A stretch of DNA of 53,301 nt from Piscirickettsiaceae bacterium CG07_land_8_20_14_0_80_44_28 (GTDB taxonomy: Bacteria; Pseudomonadota; Gammaproteobacteria; Thiomicrospirales; Thiomicrospiraceae), in contig PEWX01000065.1 in NCBI GenBank assembly GCA_002779995.1, forward strand, positions 1-53,301, given 5' to 3'. Position numbers and translations under genes: made by a program. The notes below the pieces were generated by a model that ran no database searches, was not told the DNA's origin, and saw nothing but the letters and a program-made list of their open reading frames with translations. Shown here piece by piece: positions 1 to 8,481 of the stretch (within the stretch, counting starts at the first letter, position 1; the number at the start of each line of letters is the position of its first letter).

Positions 1-1
1 T

Positions 2-379
2 GATAAGCTTCAACAATGGTTACAGGCCAATCGTCAAAAAGTTCCGCATGGCAGTGTGACCGCAAAAGCGATCGACTATATGCTCAAACGTTGGGTGGCT
101 TTAACACGTTACCTAGAGAATGGCAGTTTACCAATCGATAACAACCGGGTGGCAAACCAGATGCGCCCCTGGGCGTTGGGTCGAAAGAACTGGTTGTTTG
201 CAGGAAGCGAGCGTAGTAGTAAACGTGCTGCTGCGATAATGACATTGGTGCAATCAGCTAAACTCAATGGTCATGATCCTTATGCTTATCTCAAGGACGT
301 ACTTACACGCCTGCCAACACACAAGAACAGCCGAATCCATGAGCTGTTACCACATCATTGGTCTCTGCAACAGGGGTGA
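2..379 (+). CDS. IS66 family transposase (TnpC), C-terminal fragment, 5' end outside window
   Basis: This frame is open from the first bases of the window, so the 126 visible residues are the tail of a larger protein rather than a gene starting at the in-frame GTG at 56. The segment IDNNRVANQMRPWALGRKNW, followed by LFAGS and a region rich in Ala, Thr and Ser, is the typical end of the IS66 DDE transposase domain, including the late Asn/Glu-rich part of the catalytic core. The C-terminal LLPHHW is also common in this family. The protein would cut and join the ends of the element. Whether the gene is intact upstream cannot be seen. Family assignment is firm; activity is unknown. Confidence 0.88.
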   Translation, partial: DKLQQWLQANRQKVPHGSVTAKAIDYMLKRWVALTRYLENGSLPIDNNRVANQMRPWALGRKNWLFAGSERSSKRAAAIMTLVQSAKLNGHDPYAYLKDVLTRLPTHKNSRIHELLPHHWSLQQG

Positions 380-380
380 T

Positions 381-394
381 TGCCGGACGCTTAC
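381..394. repeat. IS66 right terminal inverted repeat
   Basis: TGCCGGACGCTTAC begins two bases after the transposase stop codon. Read on the other strand it starts GTAAGCG, as IS66-family ends usually do. The partner repeat is outside the window, so the exact boundary and repeat length are inferred. Confidence 0.65.
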
Positions 395-453
395 GCTAGT
401 TACTCGAAAAGCTCTTATCTTAAAGATATTCCTTCTCCCTTCAAGCCTATCCT

Positions 454-3400
454 TCAGTCAATTCTTATCTCATCCATCCATGACTTAAACTGTTCTAATG
501 TTTTATCATGCCGACGTTTTAGCTTGAAGACATTACAAATATAATCAACGGGATCTTTAGGCGATTTTTCCAATGCTAATCGAGCCAAACCCTTAGCTTC
601 TGGATAGGGAATCACGCTCCAATCACGCTCATCGCCCCAAGGATCCAAGCCTCTCCAATCCATCTCATCCACAATATCTTCTGGACATGACCAGACCACC
701 GGTTTATGAACACCATCGCGTTTTATCCCGCCCCAAGGTTCTATTAGCGCAGTAAGATACTGAAGCTGCTTTTTACTTGTCCGCGACAAACCATGTAAAT
801 TAGCAATATCCAATGCCAACTCATGGAGGGTAATCCCGTTCTTTTCTTCAAGGATTCCCTTAGTAATTTCAATAAGTGTTGGTTTGTAGTCATCATCAAA
901 ATAGCGAGAATGATCATATTCGGAAGAAAGTCTATTTTGAGAATCTTTCTCGACTTCAACACCAATAGAGGCACTGTCGGCAAGAGCGACATCTGTGACA
1001 CTATCCGAACTGAAAATTTCAGAGGGATCAGCATTGGCATCCACACTCTTTTTCTTCAATTCAGCTTTATTTCTATCCTCTTCAAGGATTTCGTTCAGGC
1101 GGCCATGCATCTTGGATAAAGCTTCTTCAGGATCCTGGAAATAATCTGTTGACCACAGGCGAATCAATCGCCACCCTAAGTTTTCTAAGATTCCATGACG
1201 AACGCGATCCCGATCTCTAGCGGACGGAGACCCGTGATAGGTAGCACCATCACATTCGATGCCAGCCAAATATACGCCGGGATGATCGGGGTGAATTATC
1301 CCAAGGTCGACCCTGAATTTACTGACACCAATTTGAGCCTGAACATTCCAACCTTTATTGCGTAGAGCCCAAGCAACTGCCTGCTCAAAATCACTATCGA
1401 ACTGATCTACTCCATACGCTGCGGTAGATTGTTCGGCTAATGCAATAGGCCCTTTCTCTGCAAACTCCAAATAGTGTTTAAGATGTTCTACTGCTAGGGC
1501 TGACGACCGGCTTAGATCGATCATTGATGAATCAAAGCTCGAAAATAACAATACCTCGCTCGTTGCCCTTGTTATAGCAACATTGAGTCTTCGTTCTCCC
1601 CCTGACTTATTTAGAGGACCAAAGTTCATACTCATGGTTCGACCGCCCGACTCTGTCGGACCATAACTCAAACTAAGGATAATGATGTCTCTCTCATCGC
1701 CTTGTACAGCTTCAAGATTTTTTACAAACACTCCATCGTATGTATCCGTAGATTGAAAATATGGTTCGATCTCAGGGTGCTGTCGACGTGAATCATCAAG
1801 TAAATCTTCAACAGTTCGCTGCTGCTCAGTGTTTAGAGTGACCACGCCAATACTTTGATGCTGTCGCTCTGGATCTGTAAGACGCTTAACGATTTCTTTA
1901 ACAACAGCAGCTGCCTCTATCGGGTTATTCCTCCCCTTACCCTTAGAGTAAACCCCGTCAACTCTGTGCAGCGTTACAGCTGACTCCTTAGTATCTGAAG
2001 AAGGGTATGTTACCAGTGAATTTTCATAATATTTGCTATTGGAGAAAGCTATTAGGGTTTCATGTCGACTCCGATAGTGACCTTTCAATCTAAGATGAGG
2101 CAAGCGTGCTGCTAACGCCTGATCAAGAATAGATTCCAGATCCTCTTCATCCGGATCACCAACGTCCACAGCACCACTAAAGAAACTGGTTGGAGGCATC
2201 TGTTTAGGGTCTCCTACCACAATTACATTTTTACCTCTTGCGATAGCCCCCACTGAATCCCAAGTTGTCATCTGGGAGGCCTCATCAAAAATAACCAAAT
2301 CAAACCCATTAAAATCAGAAGGTAGAAATTGGGCAACAGAAAGAGGTGACATCATCATGCAGGGGCACAAATCCATCAGGCGGGATCCCATTTCATTAAA
2401 TAGTGATCGTACCGGTTTGTGGCGAGTTTTCTTCTGAAGCTCCCTAGCCAAAACGCCAAACTCTTTGGGACCATCCTTCGCGAAGGGGTCGGGAACCTTT
2501 TGCGCCGCAATAGCAGCCACATATTGGCTAGTAGTATGAGCCACATTAGCATCTAACTCTCTAAACTCATGAATCAATTGCTCATGAGTTGACGCTTTAA
2601 ACAGTCGAAGGTCATCACTTTCATCTATCAGCTGTGGCGCTATCCATCGACAGAAAGCTGTTAATGCTTGATCTTCGGCGTCGTCAGGCAAGATAGTTCG
2701 GGCCTCCAGCCCTTGTGTCAAATTGTCGAGTTGATAAGCATTAATCGATTCTTTTGCAGCAAGCCATTCACTCCAAGCTTTAAATTTTAACGCACTGGCT
2801 ATTAACTCATCAATTGCAGGATTAACAGTTTCAAGGGAAGAGCTTTCATCAAATTCCAGCTCTAGATTTTTGGCTTCATCAGCCACAGCAATATAAGCGT
2901 TCCAATGCTGTTTGAAATTATTTTTCTGGGCAACAACCATTGAGCTATCGAGAAAATCACGGCCATCAATAAGCTTGGACTTAACTGCGGTAAGTACTAT
3001 AGAAAGATCATCCGACAGGCCAATAACTTCTGCCAGCGCCTTATGGGCAGCCTTTCCCCTTACCATTGCTGCACTTAAGCTTTCAGCAGTTGTATCCCAA
3101 CCTTGCCATATTTCATCTTCTTCAAACGGGGCTGCCAATGCCACTATTGTCTCTTGTAAATTAGCGGCCTTTTCAATTTCAGATAACACACTCATGTCTT
3201 TAAGTTTTTTATAACCCAGCTTTTTAGCCGAAGAATTTATTTTTATTCTTGCAAAGAAGCGTTTAAACCAGCTTTTTTTTGCTCCATCATAAATATTCAC
3301 CCATTCAGCACTAGGGCTATTGGCAAGTATTTCTGGTGAAATGTTATGCCCAACATTGTTAAGCGTTTGATCAAACTCTCGCTTTATTACGCTCAATTCA

Positions 3401-6273
3401 TCAAGACTGTCTAATAAATCTCTAGCCCCTTTCGCAACAAGGTAGCTTAAGGGATTAGATTGAGCAGATGTAATCAACTCCGCCAAAGCATTTACACGCG
3501 CAATATTAGCTATAGTGTTCTCTTTTATATCAATATTGAAATTGGATGCCAGTATTACGGCGCAAGGATAGAGCTCATTAAGTACCGATTTATAGCGCGT
3601 TAGACAATCAACGACTTGGCTCTGCCAAGCATTAGACCAACTTCTAGCCTTAAGAATCCGGAATTGGATAGGGTTAAGGTGAGATATATCGTTATACGCA
3701 AGCGCTGCTAATTTAACAGACTCAAGCATCTCATCTAGCATTTCAGCGGAATTAACAGGAGCTGACTCCAAACCTAACGACCACGTTAAGGACAAGGAAT
3801 GCTTGTCCTTATAAAGCACATCACGAGCTATAGCATCACGTGCGGACAAACCAAAAATGGATTTCTTATGTAAAGCTTGTACAAAATTGTTAAGGTGATC
3901 ACGCTTATCTTTTAGCGTTCTAACAGAGTCCACCCAACCAGCACTTTTTGCATCATCGCGCCTAGCGGTCGCTTCTCTTAGCTGCTCAAGAACAGCTTTT
4001 TTATTCGCCTTATTACTGTGCAGCTCTAAACATAAGTGATCGAGACCAACTTTTTCCATGCGTCTGTAAACAACATGAAGCGCAGCCATTTTCTCAGCGA
4101 CAAATAACACGTTTCTACCGAGAGCCATGTTATGGCATATGATGTTTGCTATTGTTTCTGACTTTCCTGTGCCTGGCGGCCCCTCTAATACAAAATCTTG
4201 CGGCCTACCCGACGCCTCTACAGCCACAAGCTGTGAACTGTCACAGTTCAGGGGCGTAAAAACCTTTTCTGGATCGATCTTTTCGTCTACTTCATCACGC
4301 AATACAAAACTGGCATCCTGAACATACGCATCCTGAGGATGATCAACTAAATGCTTAACGAAAAGATTTTCCTTTAAATCGTCAATCCGATCTTTGAGAT
4401 CCTTCCACATTAAATATTTAGCAAAGGAAAAAGATGCTAGAACTAGTTCTTCCACTACCTCAAAGCCTGGTTGCTCTGCTATTACAGACCGGACTATGCT
4501 CCAGATAAGATTCACGTCAATGCCAGACGCATCTTCAGGTAACGACTCACGAAACTGATTAAGATCTATACTATGCTCCGTATTTAGGAACTCAATCAGT
4601 GTCATATTAAATATTGGGCTTTCGTCGGGAAGTTGACGAACTTTAATCGGAGCCCTCGCGCTGCTTCTGGTGAGTTCTGCTGGTATTAAAATAAGGGGGG
4701 CGCGGTAGGAACGATCATCTTCTGGGTTTTCCTTCCAACGCAACATCCCTAAAGCTAGATATAATGTGTTTGACCCACCTTCTTCTAGGTCATTTTTTGT
4801 CTTCCTTAAAAGGTTGATTGCATTTTGTTCGAGTTTTTTCCTAGACATATTTGCTAGAAGAACATTTTTATTTAGTTGGTCTAATGCATACTCTTTATGA
4901 ATATCTGAACCAGCCTGCAATCTGAAGGATTCTTCACTTCGCTCATTGTCATTTAGCGGGCTTTCCTCTGCCGACAGGAATTTAAATGACACACCATCAG
5001 CCAAACGATCTTCCATAGACCCGATATCTGGACAATATAACTTTATTGCTACAGCTCGGTCTTTTAACGCTAACAGTGAATTACGTTTCGTTAGATCCAA
5101 TAGCTTACGCTGCCAAGTATCAATCCGTGTGTCAGCAGTTTCAGCAACGACTTGTTCATCAGCCCTTACAGGTGGCAATGGAGGGATGATAGGTAAATTT
5201 AGTTCGCTCTCAGAATCAGAGCTTTTCTCTTCAGGTTTTTCTTCAACTGTGAATATTGGCCTAATTTTGCGGGCTCTTGCCTGCTTTATATCGATGACAT
5301 ATACAAAATTTTCTTCTTTATCTTCACTAATGAGATCCCTGGCATAAGCTTTGGCTTGCTCAAAAGTTACAGGAGTATCATTGGTGACTAACGTACTTTC
5401 AAATAGCACAAGGTCACGGGTATCAATGCGCTTACGTAGATCCATTGGATCATCAGTTGTCAACACAGGAAAACGTTCATCGATCAGCCAAACACCTACA
5501 AATGCATGATCTTTTCCTAATGCAATGACTGGATTAAGCCCCATCAACTCAATACAACTGGCAAATAAAAGTGATGTATCAAGACAAGCTCCAATTTTAG
5601 AAGCGCTAATATCAGCTGCTAATCGAATACGCTGCCCTTGCCGAGCAAAGTCTTGAGGTGGAGTGACGTAGGCAATACGCTGGGAAAAAATGACGTTCCA
5701 AAGTGCCGCTGTCATCAAATACGGTTTTTCTCGCGTGTTGGACTGATAACCATCGGCGCTTCTTCCATGACCATTCTTTTCGAGAATTTCTGTTACTTGC
5801 TTAACTAAAGATTCGACATAAACGCCGTTGGGTTTTACGAATGCTGCTAAAAGGTCGGGTTGACGACTCTCTCCGCCCCAAAAGTTTGCAGGAAGAACTG
5901 CAATAGACATTTTATTTTTCGCAAGTACGGCTTCAGAATCACTCAGCGCATTAACTGTAAGAATTACTGAGACCCTCATTTCCTCGGTTAAATTGAATAG
6001 GATATTGTGTGGGATATTCAAATCCTTTTGCTGTAGGGCAATGACCTGCCCGGGTCGAATCTCATCGATGAGCCATTCTTCAGGGGTAAAGAGCTCTGGC
6101 TCAGATGTTAATTTAACAACGAGGTGATTTAACGGCTCAAAATCTTCTGACAACTCATTATCGAAGGTCGGATAGTGTAAGGTCAAATTCCGAAATAACG
6201 GGTAAGCATTTTGTTGAGCAGCCAAGGAAAAAGTAGAAAGATGTTCAATTTTTAATTTTAGTGGTGATTCCAT
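454..6273 (-). CDS. Giant SF1 helicase with transglutaminase-like, DUF4011, Vsr-like nuclease and DUF3320 domains
   Basis: A 1939-residue protein, probably an anti-phage or DNA-processing effector. Domains seen in order: an N-terminal beta-rich region (about 1-135); a transglutaminase-like region with GACLDTSLLF (Cys near 228) and DHAFVGVW (His near 256); a DUF4011-type region starting near 383 (RKLLDLTKRNSLL); an SF1 helicase core with Walker A GPPGTGKS near 698, DEASQ near 1330, GDPKQMPP near 1353, HYRSRHE, AVQGDERDIIILS and motif VI RRLNVAITRA near 1565; a Vsr/DUF559-like nuclease with VQAQIG, RVDLGI (Asp near 1655) and IECDGATYH (Glu near 1672); and a DUF3320-like C-terminus near 1800-1870. 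All helicase motifs and acidic nuclease residues are present, so it looks intact. It sits between an IS66 end and an attC-like site next to a HEPN gene, on the same strand. Large helicase-nucleases of this architecture are known in defence islands; the role here is inferred. Confidence 0.9.
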   Translation of the reverse strand: MESPLKLKIEHLSTFSLAAQQNAYPLFRNLTLHYPTFDNELSEDFEPLNHLVVKLTSEPELFTPEEWLIDEIRPGQVIALQQKDLNIPHNILFNLTEEMRVSVILTVNALSDSEAVLAKNKMSIAVLPANFWGGESRQPDLLAAFVKPNGVYVESLVKQVTEILEKNGHGRSADGYQSNTREKPYLMTAALWNVIFSQRIAYVTPPQDFARQGQRIRLAADISASKIGACLDTSLLFASCIELMGLNPVIALGKDHAFVGVWLIDERFPVLTTDDPMDLRKRIDTRDLVLFESTLVTNDTPVTFEQAKAYARDLISEDKEENFVYVIDIKQARARKIRPIFTVEEKPEEKSSDSESELNLPIIPPLPPVRADEQVVAETADTRIDTWQRKLLDLTKRNSLLALKDRAVAIKLYCPDIGSMEDRLADGVSFKFLSAEESPLNDNERSEESFRLQAGSDIHKEYALDQLNKNVLLANMSRKKLEQNAINLLRKTKNDLEEGGSNTLYLALGMLRWKENPEDDRSYRAPLILIPAELTRSSARAPIKVRQLPDESPIFNMTLIEFLNTEHSIDLNQFRESLPEDASGIDVNLIWSIVRSVIAEQPGFEVVEELVLASFSFAKYLMWKDLKDRIDDLKENLFVKHLVDHPQDAYVQDASFVLRDEVDEKIDPEKVFTPLNCDSSQLVAVEASGRPQDFVLEGPPGTGKSETIANIICHNMALGRNVLFVAEKMAALHVVYRRMEKVGLDHLCLELHSNKANKKAVLEQLREATARRDDAKSAGWVDSVRTLKDKRDHLNNFVQALHKKSIFGLSARDAIARDVLYKDKHSLSLTWSLGLESAPVNSAEMLDEMLESVKLAALAYNDISHLNPIQFRILKARSWSNAWQSQVVDCLTRYKSVLNELYPCAVILASNFNIDIKENTIANIARVNALAELITSAQSNPLSYLVAKGARDLLDSLDELSVIKREFDQTLNNVGHNISPEILANSPSAEWVNIYDGAKKSWFKRFFARIKINSSAKKLGYKKLKDMSVLSEIEKAANLQETIVALAAPFEEDEIWQGWDTTAESLSAAMVRGKAAHKALAEVIGLSDDLSIVLTAVKSKLIDGRDFLDSSMVVAQKNNFKQHWNAYIAVADEAKNLELEFDESSSLETVNPAIDELIASALKFKAWSEWLAAKESINAYQLDNLTQGLEARTILPDDAEDQALTAFCRWIAPQLIDESDDLRLFKASTHEQLIHEFRELDANVAHTTSQYVAAIAAQKVPDPFAKDGPKEFGVLARELQKKTRHKPVRSLFNEMGSRLMDLCPCMMMSPLSVAQFLPSDFNGFDLVIFDEASQMTTWDSVGAIARGKNVIVVGDPKQMPPTSFFSGAVDVGDPDEEDLESILDQALAARLPHLRLKGHYRSRHETLIAFSNSKYYENSLVTYPSSDTKESAVTLHRVDGVYSKGKGRNNPIEAAAVVKEIVKRLTDPERQHQSIGVVTLNTEQQRTVEDLLDDSRRQHPEIEPYFQSTDTYDGVFVKNLEAVQGDERDIIILSLSYGPTESGGRTMSMNFGPLNKSGGERRLNVAITRATSEVLLFSSFDSSMIDLSRSSALAVEHLKHYLEFAEKGPIALAEQSTAAYGVDQFDSDFEQAVAWALRNKGWNVQAQIGVSKFRVDLGIIHPDHPGVYLAGIECDGATYHGSPSARDRDRVRHGILENLGWRLIRLWSTDYFQDPEEALSKMHGRLNEILEEDRNKAELKKKSVDANADPSEIFSSDSVTDVALADSASIGVEVEKDSQNRLSSEYDHSRYFDDDYKPTLIEITKGILEEKNGITLHELALDIANLHGLSRTSKKQLQYLTALIEPWGGIKRDGVHKPVVWSCPEDIVDEMDWRGLDPWGDERDWSVIPYPEAKGLARLALEKSPKDPVDYICNVFKLKRRHDKTLEQFKSWMDEIRID

Positions 6274-6328
6274 TTCTACTCCCTATTCCATATCTTCTTA
6301 TCACGACATCACAAGACTATTTAGCCGA

Positions 6329-6402
6329 CTTATAACGCTTTGGCTTTGCGGCGCACCGGATCGCCAGCGTAGGTGTGCCCGACAACAGCCACTTGTTAAA
6401 AA
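6329..6402 (-). other. attC-like integron recombination site at the 3' end of the HEPN gene
   Basis: Read on the minus strand, the site starts TTTTTAACAAGTGGCTG and ends GCAAAGCCAAAGCGTTATAAG in overlapping pieces. This matches the layout of integron attC sites: an R''-like box ending TAAC, then an L''-like segment, a central hairpin, an L'-like segment, and an R'-like box GTTA. TGGCT pairs with AGCCA, and an inner 8-base arm GGCACACC pairs with GGTGCGCC. The single imperfect pair of that inner arm becomes a G-T wobble on the plus strand, which is the bottom strand relative to the cassette and the one that folds for recombination in known integrons. The HEPN stop codon lies inside the R''-like box, as is common in cassettes. 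The R'-like box departs from consensus at its last positions. Confidence 0.65.
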
Positions 6403-6905
6403 TTGTACGAACCATGCACCTTCATAAGGCCCGCTAGCTTCGACTGCTTTCCCTCATCACCACTGATGTCGCGAAGCCAGTCCTGAATACCTGCAATAAC
6501 ATCTTTGGCGAACTCATCTATCTGCAGTTGCAGTACCGAACCGCCTTGGTTTATATGAACACAGCCATTTTTAGGCGGGATTGTGAAATGGAAACTTTCG
6601 CGTGCTTCTTGGGCTCGTTGCGTTCCAATATTTTCAACGCCTTCGTGCAAGAGTGCACATCGCAACGCATAGCAATCATTTCCCGACAGGAATGTATGAA
6701 TATTTCCCATCGATGGAGGACCAACTTGCCGCGTATATTTTGGTTGGACGTACCGCTCAAACCACTCAGGGTATCGCCTTGAAGATGACTTCCCAGGGAA
6801 TTCTATTTTCCCGCATATGTCTGGCAACGTGAGGCAAATAAAGATCGCCCCGTACCAGTTTCCATCACGAATATTCTTCTCAACAGCTTGGATAAACTCT
6901 TCCAT
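6396..6905 (-). CDS. Small HEPN-like protein encoded in an integron-type cassette
   Basis: A 169-residue soluble protein. Residues 80-89 read ALRCALLHEG and contain Arg82-x4-His87, the R-x(4-6)-H motif of HEPN domains, many of which are RNases or antitoxin-linked nucleases in defence and toxin systems. The preceding segment includes conserved-looking GNDCYALR. No signal peptide or membrane helix is seen. The gene is tightly framed: its stop codon lies inside an attC-like site, and GTTAAAAA, the complement of the R''-like box of that site, occurs 17 bases upstream of the start codon. A TTGACA hexamer (minus strand 6972-6967) could be part of a promoter, with a poor TAGGAT 19 bases further. It lies upstream of the giant helicase on the same strand, which suggests a shared role, but co-transcription is not shown. 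HEPN assignment rests on the motif and size only. Confidence 0.65.
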   Translation of the reverse strand: MEEFIQAVEKNIRDGNWYGAIFICLTLPDICGKIEFPGKSSSRRYPEWFERYVQPKYTRQVGPPSMGNIHTFLSGNDCYALRCALLHEGVENIGTQRAQEARESFHFTIPPKNGCVHINQGGSVLQLQIDEFAKDVIAGIQDWLRDISGDEGKQSKLAGLMKVHGSYNF

Positions 6906-6922
6906 GTGGCAGCAATCCTGTA

Positions 6923-6930
6923 TTTTTAAC
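6923..6930 (-). other. Putative 5' cassette boundary (R'-type box) of the HEPN cassette
   Basis: On the minus strand this reads GTTAAAAA and is the exact complement of the TTTTTAAC box at the far end of the cassette. In integron cassettes the first bases after the crossover come from the same attC as the 3' end, so the two should match when the cassette is circular, as they do here. An eight-base AT-rich match alone would be weak; its placement is what makes it notable. Confidence 0.5.
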
Positions 6931-7082
6931 TATAATTAGACATCCTAAACTAAATTTTATTACGTATGTCAAAAAATTATAAAAATGTGGTTTTATGTTG
7001 TTTTTTAGTTGGTTAAGTCAATTTAACACTCTGTTATTCATGTGTTTAATGTAGGTTGCTAACGTTTTAGGAGGCATAAATT

Positions 7083-7334
7083 ATGGCGGATAAATCAGGC
7101 ATTACCTTGTATGCGAGTGCATTCGAAATAAGCGTTATCCTGTGGTATTGGAGCGTTTTTAAGGGGTGTTTGGGTTGGTTAGCGAGAGTTGGTCAATTTC
7201 AAACAGTAATTTTGATAGGGCGCCGGTTTGTTGTTGAAAGCATTGGTAAGCTTTTTGGCCTTGCTGTTGTTGCAGGTTGGGGGTTTGTGATAATTTTAGT
7301 AGGGTTTCAGCTAAGTCATCGGTGTTTTGGGTAA
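7083..7334 (+). pseudogene. Possible truncated gene start with a strong ribosome binding site
   Basis: An ATG at 7083 is preceded by TAGGAGG at near-ideal spacing, yet the reading frame (83 codons) gives no recognisable protein. After about 25 codons it runs antisense through the 3' end of waaA. The opening residues MADKSGITLYASAFEISV resemble no family I know. One reading is that this is the 5' remnant of a gene whose body was lost when the accessory DNA to its left was acquired or rearranged. It may also be chance. No stop or terminator separates it from waaA. Confidence 0.25.
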
Positions 7335-8481
7335 TGGTGATGGACTGTGTTTGGATAAAGGTGTCGTAGAGCGCTTGCAGGTTCATGTGGTAGGGCCCTG
7401 ATAAAATAGGTTTGGCTAAAGCAGCAGGCTCTAAAATATTGTGTCCACCAAAAGGCACTAAGCTGCCACCGATAAAGGCGACATCGCAGCTTGCGAACCA
7501 ATGCATCAGTTCACCAATGGTATCGGCCAAATAGACTTGGGTGTTCGCTGTGACAGGCATTTGTTGTGAGCGAATAGCGTTTTGCAGGTGGGGGTGTTGT
7601 TCAAGTAATTCGGCCACTTCTTGAAAACGGTCAGAGTGCCTGGGCACTAAAATAAGTAACGCATTGGCACAGTGGCTGAGGAGCTTTTTATGGGCTTCTA
7701 ACATTAAGGCTTCTTCACCGGCATGGGTGCTGGCGGCAACCCAAATAAACCGTTCCTCAAGTCTATTATCCATTCGCCAGGCCTGGGCGTTTTGCATTAA
7801 ATCGGCCGGCAGATCAATATCAAACTTTAAGTTGCCCAGTTGTTTTATGCGTTTTGGGTCTGCGCCTAGCGCCAGCAAGTGGTGTGTGTCTGCTTGGAAT
7901 TGACTGGCGATTAGATGTGTTTGATTTAGGGCGTTCTGAACCAACTTGCCGCCCCATTTTTGATAGGCCTTAAAGGATTGTTCTTTAATACGGGCATTGG
8001 CCAGGATTAGGGGGATTTTGCGTTCAAAACAGGCTTGATAAAGATTCGGCCAAATTTCGGTTTCAATCATAATCACCAATTGAGGGTCGATTTGATCTAA
8101 AAACCGATTGACCGCGCCGGTGGTGTCATACGGAATCATTTGATGCTGAATGGGCACAGGGGAAAATCGTAATGCTTGCTGGGCGCCCTGGGTTGAACCA
8201 CTGGTTAAAGTGATGGGTAAGTTCGGATAACGCAAATGCAGTTGTTTTAACAAAGGGAAAATAGAGCGGGTTTCACCCACTGATACGGCATGAATCCAAA
8301 TGCCGTTCTTTTGGAAAAGGGTTGGGTTACGACCCAGTCGTGACGCAAAACAATGTGGGATGGGGCGGTCATCTGAATTCTGCCGGCTTCTTTTTTGTGC
8401 CTTACGACACCGCTTCCACCCTGAATAGAGAATCAAGGGAAACAGGAGTGTTAAGAGGAGCCGATAAAGCCAAAGTTGCAT
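7159..8481 (-). CDS. waaA: 3-deoxy-D-manno-octulosonic acid (Kdo) transferase
   Basis: WaaA (KdtA) adds Kdo residues from CMP-Kdo to the lipid A precursor at the cytoplasmic face of the inner membrane. The 440-residue protein has the expected N-terminal membrane anchor (about 3-20), the motif IWIHAVSVGETRS, the segment VIMIETEIWPN and the GT-B C-terminal half with FIGGSLVPFGGHNILEPAA, all family hallmarks. Length is close to the usual 420-430. It is the last gene of a leftward pagL-kdsD-waaA unit, 18 bases after kdsD, so Kdo precursor supply and Kdo transfer are encoded together. The coding sequence carries one exact CCAGGCCTGG palindrome at 7777-7786. Confidence 0.95.
   Translation of the reverse strand: MQLWLYRLLLTLLFPLILYSGWKRCRKAQKRSRQNSDDRPIPHCFASRLGRNPTLFQKNGIWIHAVSVGETRSIFPLLKQLHLRYPNLPITLTSGSTQGAQQALRFSPVPIQHQMIPYDTTGAVNRFLDQIDPQLVIMIETEIWPNLYQACFERKIPLILANARIKEQSFKAYQKWGGKLVQNALNQTHLIASQFQADTHHLLALGADPKRIKQLGNLKFDIDLPADLMQNAQAWRMDNRLEERFIWVAASTHAGEEALMLEAHKKLLSHCANALLILVPRHSDRFQEVAELLEQHPHLQNAIRSQQMPVTANTQVYLADTIGELMHWFASCDVAFIGGSLVPFGGHNILEPAALAKPILSGPYHMNLQALYDTFIQTQSITITQNTDDLAETLLKLSQTPNLQQQQGQKAYQCFQQQTGALSKLLFEIDQLSLTNPNTP
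7777..7786. repeat. CCAGGCCTGG palindrome copy inside waaA
   Basis: One of six exact copies of this 10-base palindrome in the window, and one of two that lie inside coding sequence and away from any obvious terminator. Confidence 0.7.

Follow-up and report, generated by a model that had tools for sequence, protein, structure and literature searches.

The window (the whole stretch of 53,301 nucleotides analysed here) carries an HEPN-like gene and one attC site as a 594-bp cassette at the attI site of a chromosomal integron whose integrase gene (intI) has been almost wholly deleted, and some such orphan attI sites elsewhere in the family appear to have served as landing pads for an integrase in trans; we give this reading a probability of roughly 0.8. 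The attC site, the attI site, the crossover points and the intI remnant together place the cassette in a relic, intI-less integron (Table 1). The original prediction, made from the letters of this DNA, had described the gene as an integron-type cassette with matching ends, and both the attC site (by covariance model) and the ends (8/8) bear this out; its option of a lone cassette has to be given up, since the unit is an intI-less relic integron headed by attI.

Table 1. Coordinates of the cassette, the relic integron and the adjoining genes in the window.
Feature	Position	Strand	Remarks
anti-phage protein ProA (DUF4011/helicase/nuclease)	454..6273	-	NF058533, 1823.4 bits (cut-off 1500); PDC-S37
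attC of cassette	6330..6401	-	match of model R2; R'' 6401-6395, R' GTTATAA 6336-6330
whole cassette, 594 bp	6336..6929	-	from TT after the attI G to G of R'; GTT points
HEPN-like gene, 169 aa	6396..6905	-	stop codon inside R''; PHROG 18591
attI core TTAGGATGTCTAATTATAGTTA	6927..6948	-	22/22; crossover between G 6930 and T 6929
attI region	6927..7083	-	homologous to attI upstream of intact G005 intI
decayed intI 5' end, frameshifted	7083..7153	+	nt 1-76 of G005 gene; remainder missing
host gene, presumably kdtA/waaA-like	7159..8481	-	flanks attI/intI remnant

The window attC is real. A covariance model (R2), from whose training the window was excluded, matched it with 34.1 bits and an E-value of 8.3e-6, which is rough because the training sites were picked by our own box finder and padded with N; no other R2 match appeared in the window, even at E-values as high as 10. 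Searched against the whole genome, R2 gave two matches in all, the window attC (E 3.6e-4) and a site on contig C97 (34.4 bits), so that both the model check and the search for a further attC site, proposed with the original prediction, turned out in its favour. Training used 22 attC sites from related genomes, each located next to an integrase or to an attI of integron type, four of the 26 sites scored having been dropped for weak pairing; a first model (R1), for which RNAalifold gave no base pair, had been discarded. A control of 198,210 bases yielded a single R2 match (11.7 bits, E 4.7), and 41 integron-type loci yielded 57 matches up to E 0.5, training sites counted. Read on the minus strand, the site shows the order TTTTTAAC AAG TGGCT G TTG TCGG...CCG CAA AGCCA AAGC GTTATAAG, i.e., R'', L'', inner stem, L' and R', with one extra base in L''. 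The predicted layout with the stop codon inside the site was thus correct, its size being revised from 74 to 72 bases with the R boxes, and the model match agrees that the plus strand is the one that folds.

Other approaches to the attC site were uninformative. The folding energy of the 74 nt, named beforehand as a check, was unremarkable (z -1.0; 37 of 200 shuffles were equally good). With our ad hoc box finder the attC scored 11.4, but when the window was shuffled with its dinucleotides preserved, 41 of 100 versions contained a site at least as good, so the box anatomy by itself is insufficient. The generic pattern RYYYAAC...GTTRRRY had 52 matches per strand in the genome versus 77 in the reversed control, and missed the window attC because its R'', TTTTAAC, is not RYYYAAC. 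An Rfam scan of the window at gathering thresholds gave no match, and when the attC was searched for at the DNA level to detect a further copy, only the site itself was returned.

The opposite end of the cassette carries GTTAAAAA (6930-6923), 17 bases ahead of the start codon, which is, as predicted, the exact complement of TTTTTAAC (6402-6395). The unit combines two of the features expected of an integron gene cassette, an R''/L''/L'/R' attC recognised by a covariance model and a cassette start complementary to its own R'' (8/8). The two halves had been explained as coming from one attC; the matching of the ends stands, and the upstream half is more than that, because, judged from homology, GTTAAAAA is the crossover point (G|TT) of a recognisable attI. 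The attI region is 73% identical to the attI of G005, a relative in which intI is intact (query bases 3-217, E 2.3e-25), and about 70 bases beyond it match the G005 intI with 68% identity (E 6.8e-6). The statement that the window holds no integrase is accordingly right for an intact gene but not for this 5' remnant. As in a complete integron, an attI heads the array (G005 homology, core 22/22); of the intI that should stand beside it, only the 5' remnant is present. By the default of IntegronFinder 2 (at least two attC sites without intI) the unit is not a CALIN, as the window has one model match, a count to be read with the fact that a transposase ends the contig about 6 kb beyond the attC, so that further attC sites could have been lost. 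A promoter scan of 6850-7170 found one promoter versus 1.4 expected.

The relic integron has waaA on one side and, judging from G011, would have hemN on the other. The host gene next to the intI remnant is presumably kdtA/waaA-like; in G011, the nearest relative compared, similarity to the window starts at 7158 and the next gene, which we take to be hemN-like, follows with no such insertion. Among 10 genus neighbours, nothing in window 1-7157 could be aligned and none has a unit beside waaA. In the window's own genome, hemN was found only as an N-terminal piece of 254 residues at the end of a different contig (G000:C37:2-763). On the other side of the cassette, the ProA gene starts 62 bases past the attC, and no CTTATAAC R'' was seen between the ProA stop codon and the transposase region; ProA as a second cassette would mean 5.9 kb, which is unusually large. 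The transposase region, presumably IS66-like, occupies window 1-400 at the contig end.

The search of the genome for intI, also proposed beforehand, was successful: an intact gene lies near the end of contig C89 (TIGR02249, 410.2 bits, cut-off 265). It has its own attI, and an insertion sequence at the end of the contig seems to interrupt its first cassette. The attI before the HEPN cassette differs from the C89 attI and matches the other integrase type (that of G005), to which the C89 IntI is 54% identical. The cassette would have entered by IntI-catalysed attI x attC recombination, the HEPN gene may be driven from the attI side or from a promoter of its own, and the cassette may still be movable in trans by any integrase able to recognise its attI or attC, for instance the intact, only 54% identical IntI of the same genome.

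Two further units were seen in this genome. On C97 (L185, 1366-2100), the attC with 34.4 bits closes a 210-aa ORF with an end match of 8/8 and no intI beside it; the start of the ORF abuts sequence that resembles, by eye, the attI of the C89 integrase type, and orphan attI sites may thus not be limited to one type. At L160 (G000:C17:1-9000), about 525-1220 on the minus strand, a second type-A attI core with 2 mismatches precedes a toxin-antitoxin pair, HigBA (Pfam E 3.8e-14 for HigB), and the ends match 8/8 by eye. The model found no attC in this HigBA cassette, and its R' seems to be damaged; next to the attI core are two internal pieces of intI, and a second copy of the 3' end of an lpd-like gene (196 bp, 91%) is found beyond the cassette.

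The product of the cassette gene belongs to PHROG 18591 (E 1.6e-36), a family with no function assigned. No model of Pfam, NCBIfam or PADLOC matched the protein (0 Pfam families at E 10), and Pfam searches with 11 family members gave none that was relevant; it thus matches neither a curated HEPN family nor a known anti-phage system (PADLOC or NCBIfam defence models), unlike its neighbour ProA. The HEPN superfamily is defined by a conserved R-x4-6-H motif. In 48 sequences P28, D29, R82, H87 and W143 are invariant, and the R-x4-H motif is therefore present; the underlying alignment (A5) used 47 of 80 viral loci, L208 and L213 being excluded because each has a stop codon and the other 31 lying outside it. 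The fold model is confident (pLDDT 90.0, pTM 0.86; pLDDT 38.5 from the single sequence). Its best VIA fold alignments were with AbiV (9bj7; Z 5.8), 2hsb (an HEPN protein; 4.9) and the HEPN region of two Csm6 chains (4.4 and 4.2), all below 8, a level at which Z may reflect no more than a shared arrangement. We take all of these structures to be HEPN; AbiV, 2hsb and Csm6 have at most 12% identity to the window protein and no family model in common with it. Foldseek gave no match to the PDB at E 0.001, an absence that carries no evidential weight, and a profile search of PDB sequences had as best match an unrelated one (E 0.045). The HEPN label of the original prediction is consequently unsupported by family models and made likely by the invariant R-x4-H and the predicted fold. 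From fold and motif, the product would most likely be a ribonuclease-type effector of an abortive-infection or toxin-like kind, and the gene possibly plays a role in defence.

Relatives of the HEPN gene have a scattered distribution. The gene occurs in 1 of 62 family genomes (the window's own) and in 3 of 369 genomes of the class, with one partial relative among genome contigs; 14 plasmid records and 44 phage records, several of them temperate, contain relatives. In viral contigs none was found with the single protein, whereas the alignment retrieved 83 of 92 candidate stretches, of which 80 were kept. In phages or a phage-like region (L180-L184, L050), members of the HEPN family often stand by integrase, holin, endolysin and tail genes. 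Accessory genes of temperate phages often adjoin such genes.

A survey of the attI type revealed that it is widespread in the family. Homology to the attI (236 bases, E up to 1e-3) was detected in 15 of 60 family genomes, in 27 places altogether. A search for the 22-base core allowing up to 2 mismatches found 39 places, 23 of which match exactly, in 19 of the 60 genomes (the reversed-pattern control gave 0). These 39 represent 38 distinct sites, as the ends of C28 and C21 in G024 are probably one site split by an assembly break, and attI copies recognised by DNA similarity with more than 2 core mismatches (L093, L095 and L098) are outside the count. There are up to four copies per genome (G049), the four of G024 being probably three. 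An intact cognate intI is present in 2 of the 19 core-bearing genomes (G005 and G027), a full-length intI of the other type (52-54% identity) in G000, G011, G021, G024 and G038, partial frames in G025 and G026, and broken pieces in G050 and G060; the remaining eight gave no intI match at E 1e-20. Most attI units have short or no intI remains. A model attC was found to the right in 23 of the 39 core units and none in the other 16. In 17 of those 23, the window included, the 8 bases at the cassette start are fully complementary to the first R'', and in six they are not; later pairs of R'' and cassette start match in 16 of 31, a number lowered because missed attC sites break the chain. No exact match to the attI core occurred in viral contigs and the G005 attI DNA had no match in plasmids, so there is no sign of a mobile carrier there.

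Several of these loci showed additional features. At L160, L163, L173, L176, L088 and L164, stretches of 33-394 bp from the host flank preceding attI recur as direct repeats in the DNA beyond it, and are perhaps marks of how attI units were inserted or exchanged. A TIR (ThsB-like) gene paired with a caspase gene forms a cassette at each of two attI loci, which belong to different genera (L173:4892-6249 and L089:5323-6684; 72% and 60% protein identity). At L089:6786-9307, a BsuBI/PstI-type restriction enzyme and its methylase form a two-gene cassette at an intI-less attI.

Eight host loci each carry an attI unit in two genomes; comparison of the 1500 bp (1202 in one pair) to the right of the cut showed no similarity for any of them. 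In G055 2011k and G052 the left flanks align with 92% identity over 1027 bp, unbroken up to G|TT, and the next 1500 bp have nothing in common; alignments unbroken to the cut were also obtained for G060/G052 (89%, 787 bp), G042/G051 (91%, 827 bp) and G050/G024 (83%, 920 bp). The same intI deletion, joining about nt 86 to about nt 262-273 and ending at 374-380, is present in G055 (two copies), G052 and G060, so the loss is shared. The first cassettes are a 242-aa ORF in G055 2011k and a BsuBI/PstI-type restriction-modification pair in G052, both with matching R''. The sites of G042/G051 and G050/G024 have no trace of intI within 900 bp, and G042, G051, G052 and G055 now have no intI match at E 1e-20. 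In G042/G051 the two sequences become alike again precisely at the last attC, from its GTT onwards. The other five locus pairs align in parts of the left flank only and therefore do not discriminate between integration in trans and homologous exchange. These comparisons suggest that cassettes at some orphan attI sites were exchanged after the local intI had died, by an integrase acting in trans. Family genomes would thus hold several intI-less attI sites of one type that have served as landing pads. As none of the 10 neighbours has a unit beside waaA, such service is inferred at other loci and not at the window locus.

The units might instead be pure fossils, in which movement ceased with the loss of intI, leaving the HEPN cassette frozen and the orphan attI sites dead; this is possible, though we rather doubt it. 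Decay of intI has often been reported, pseudogenes making up about one third of intI genes in the part of one survey considered (PMC2426708), and in Xanthomonas a shared intI deletion usually went with identical arrays, according to the part of that account considered here (PMC12444791). The window unit itself is without sign of recent movement, and the scarcity of intI remains at most units also fits this explanation. However, at three locus pairs orthologous intI-less attI sites are followed by cassettes unrelated to each other, the similarity breaking off precisely at G|TT, and in one pair both partners have the same deletion.

Cassettes could also have been replaced by homologous recombination, an intI-deleted attI allele being swapped between lineages with different arrays through a crossover in the attI of about 157 bp or in the flank. 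This explanation, the main rival for the cassette differences, is favoured by the recurrence of units after the same host genes in different genera and by the direct repeats of host gene 3' ends that flank some units (for example 196 bp, 91%, at L160; 175 bp, 90%, at L163), which hint that flanking DNA was exchanged by illegitimate or homologous recombination. Such crossovers need not respect the G|TT or GTT points, yet in the fully aligned pairs the similarity ends at the crossover base, and G042/G051 become alike again from the GTT of the last attC. We regard homologous recombination as unlikely and an integrase in trans as the simplest reading of the cassette differences.

An off-target (attG) insertion of a lone attC without integron history, a process that is in print (PMC12444791, in the part covered), would agree with a single attC and no intact integrase in the window. 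It is very improbable here, as the insertion site is a 157-bp attI homologue followed by a correctly placed and oriented intI remnant; a lone cassette at a random site is rejected on the same attI homology and intI remains. A chance inverted repeat at a gene end, for which the fold z-score and the shuffled box scores might speak, is hardly credible given the match of a window-free model with a clean control, the attI homology and the 8-base end match.

Beyond the relic integron with service in trans, a wider and more tentative picture can be drawn, in which the integrons of this family of sulfur bacteria would form a network of several dispersed intI-less attI pads of one type placed after housekeeping genes, ready for expression and loaded or unloaded by an integrase in trans. 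The pads would carry single or few cassettes (restriction-modification, TIR-caspase, toxin-antitoxin, HEPN), the integrase would come from one remaining or transient intI, and the HEPN gene of the window would be the current load of its pad.

Surveys find CALINs and single attC sites roughly as often as integrons, and the usual explanation for them is decay or off-target insertion. The window unit resembles those described with IntegronFinder (PMC9024848, in part) in having an attC without adjoining intact intI in a genome with intI elsewhere; however, the CALIN default requires two attC sites, whereas the window has one, headed by a recognisable attI. The same authors, in the part covered, state that attI outside class 1 is not detected. 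Inactivated chromosomal integrons of Xanthomonas (PMC12444791) likewise have intI deletions and arrays at few conserved loci, and their CALINs are said to be mobilisable in trans. In the sections of that paper considered, the same deletion usually goes with identical arrays, whereas here it goes with unrelated first cassettes; one attI type recurring up to four times per genome is another difference. Within Hydrogenovibrio and Thiomicrospira, CALINs have also been reported: Hydrogenovibrio crunogenus SP-41 seems to be listed with one complete integron and three CALINs and XCL-2 with two CALINs (PMC10295459), and attI sites, analysed here, do not figure in the part of that study covered. Delta-attI cassettes of class 1 and 2 integrons (PMC12901181, in part) are alike in that pieces of attI lie away from the integron start, but there a partial attI replaces the attC downstream of the gene, whereas the window attI is upstream and the cassette has its own attC intact. 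Integrase loss, CALINs in Hydrogenovibrio and, as an idea, mobilisation in trans are thus already in print in the parts of these sources covered. The open-licence literature searched yielded no account of genomes with several dispersed intI-less attI copies of one type and cassette turnover after intI loss.

For this family, the attI signature means that such units are headed by a real attI and that there are several per genome. Orthologous dead-intI sites with different cassettes make the service of orphan attI sites in trans directly testable, and the attI core provides a search motif for cassette-borne candidate defence genes which, like the HEPN gene, lie outside known defence models.
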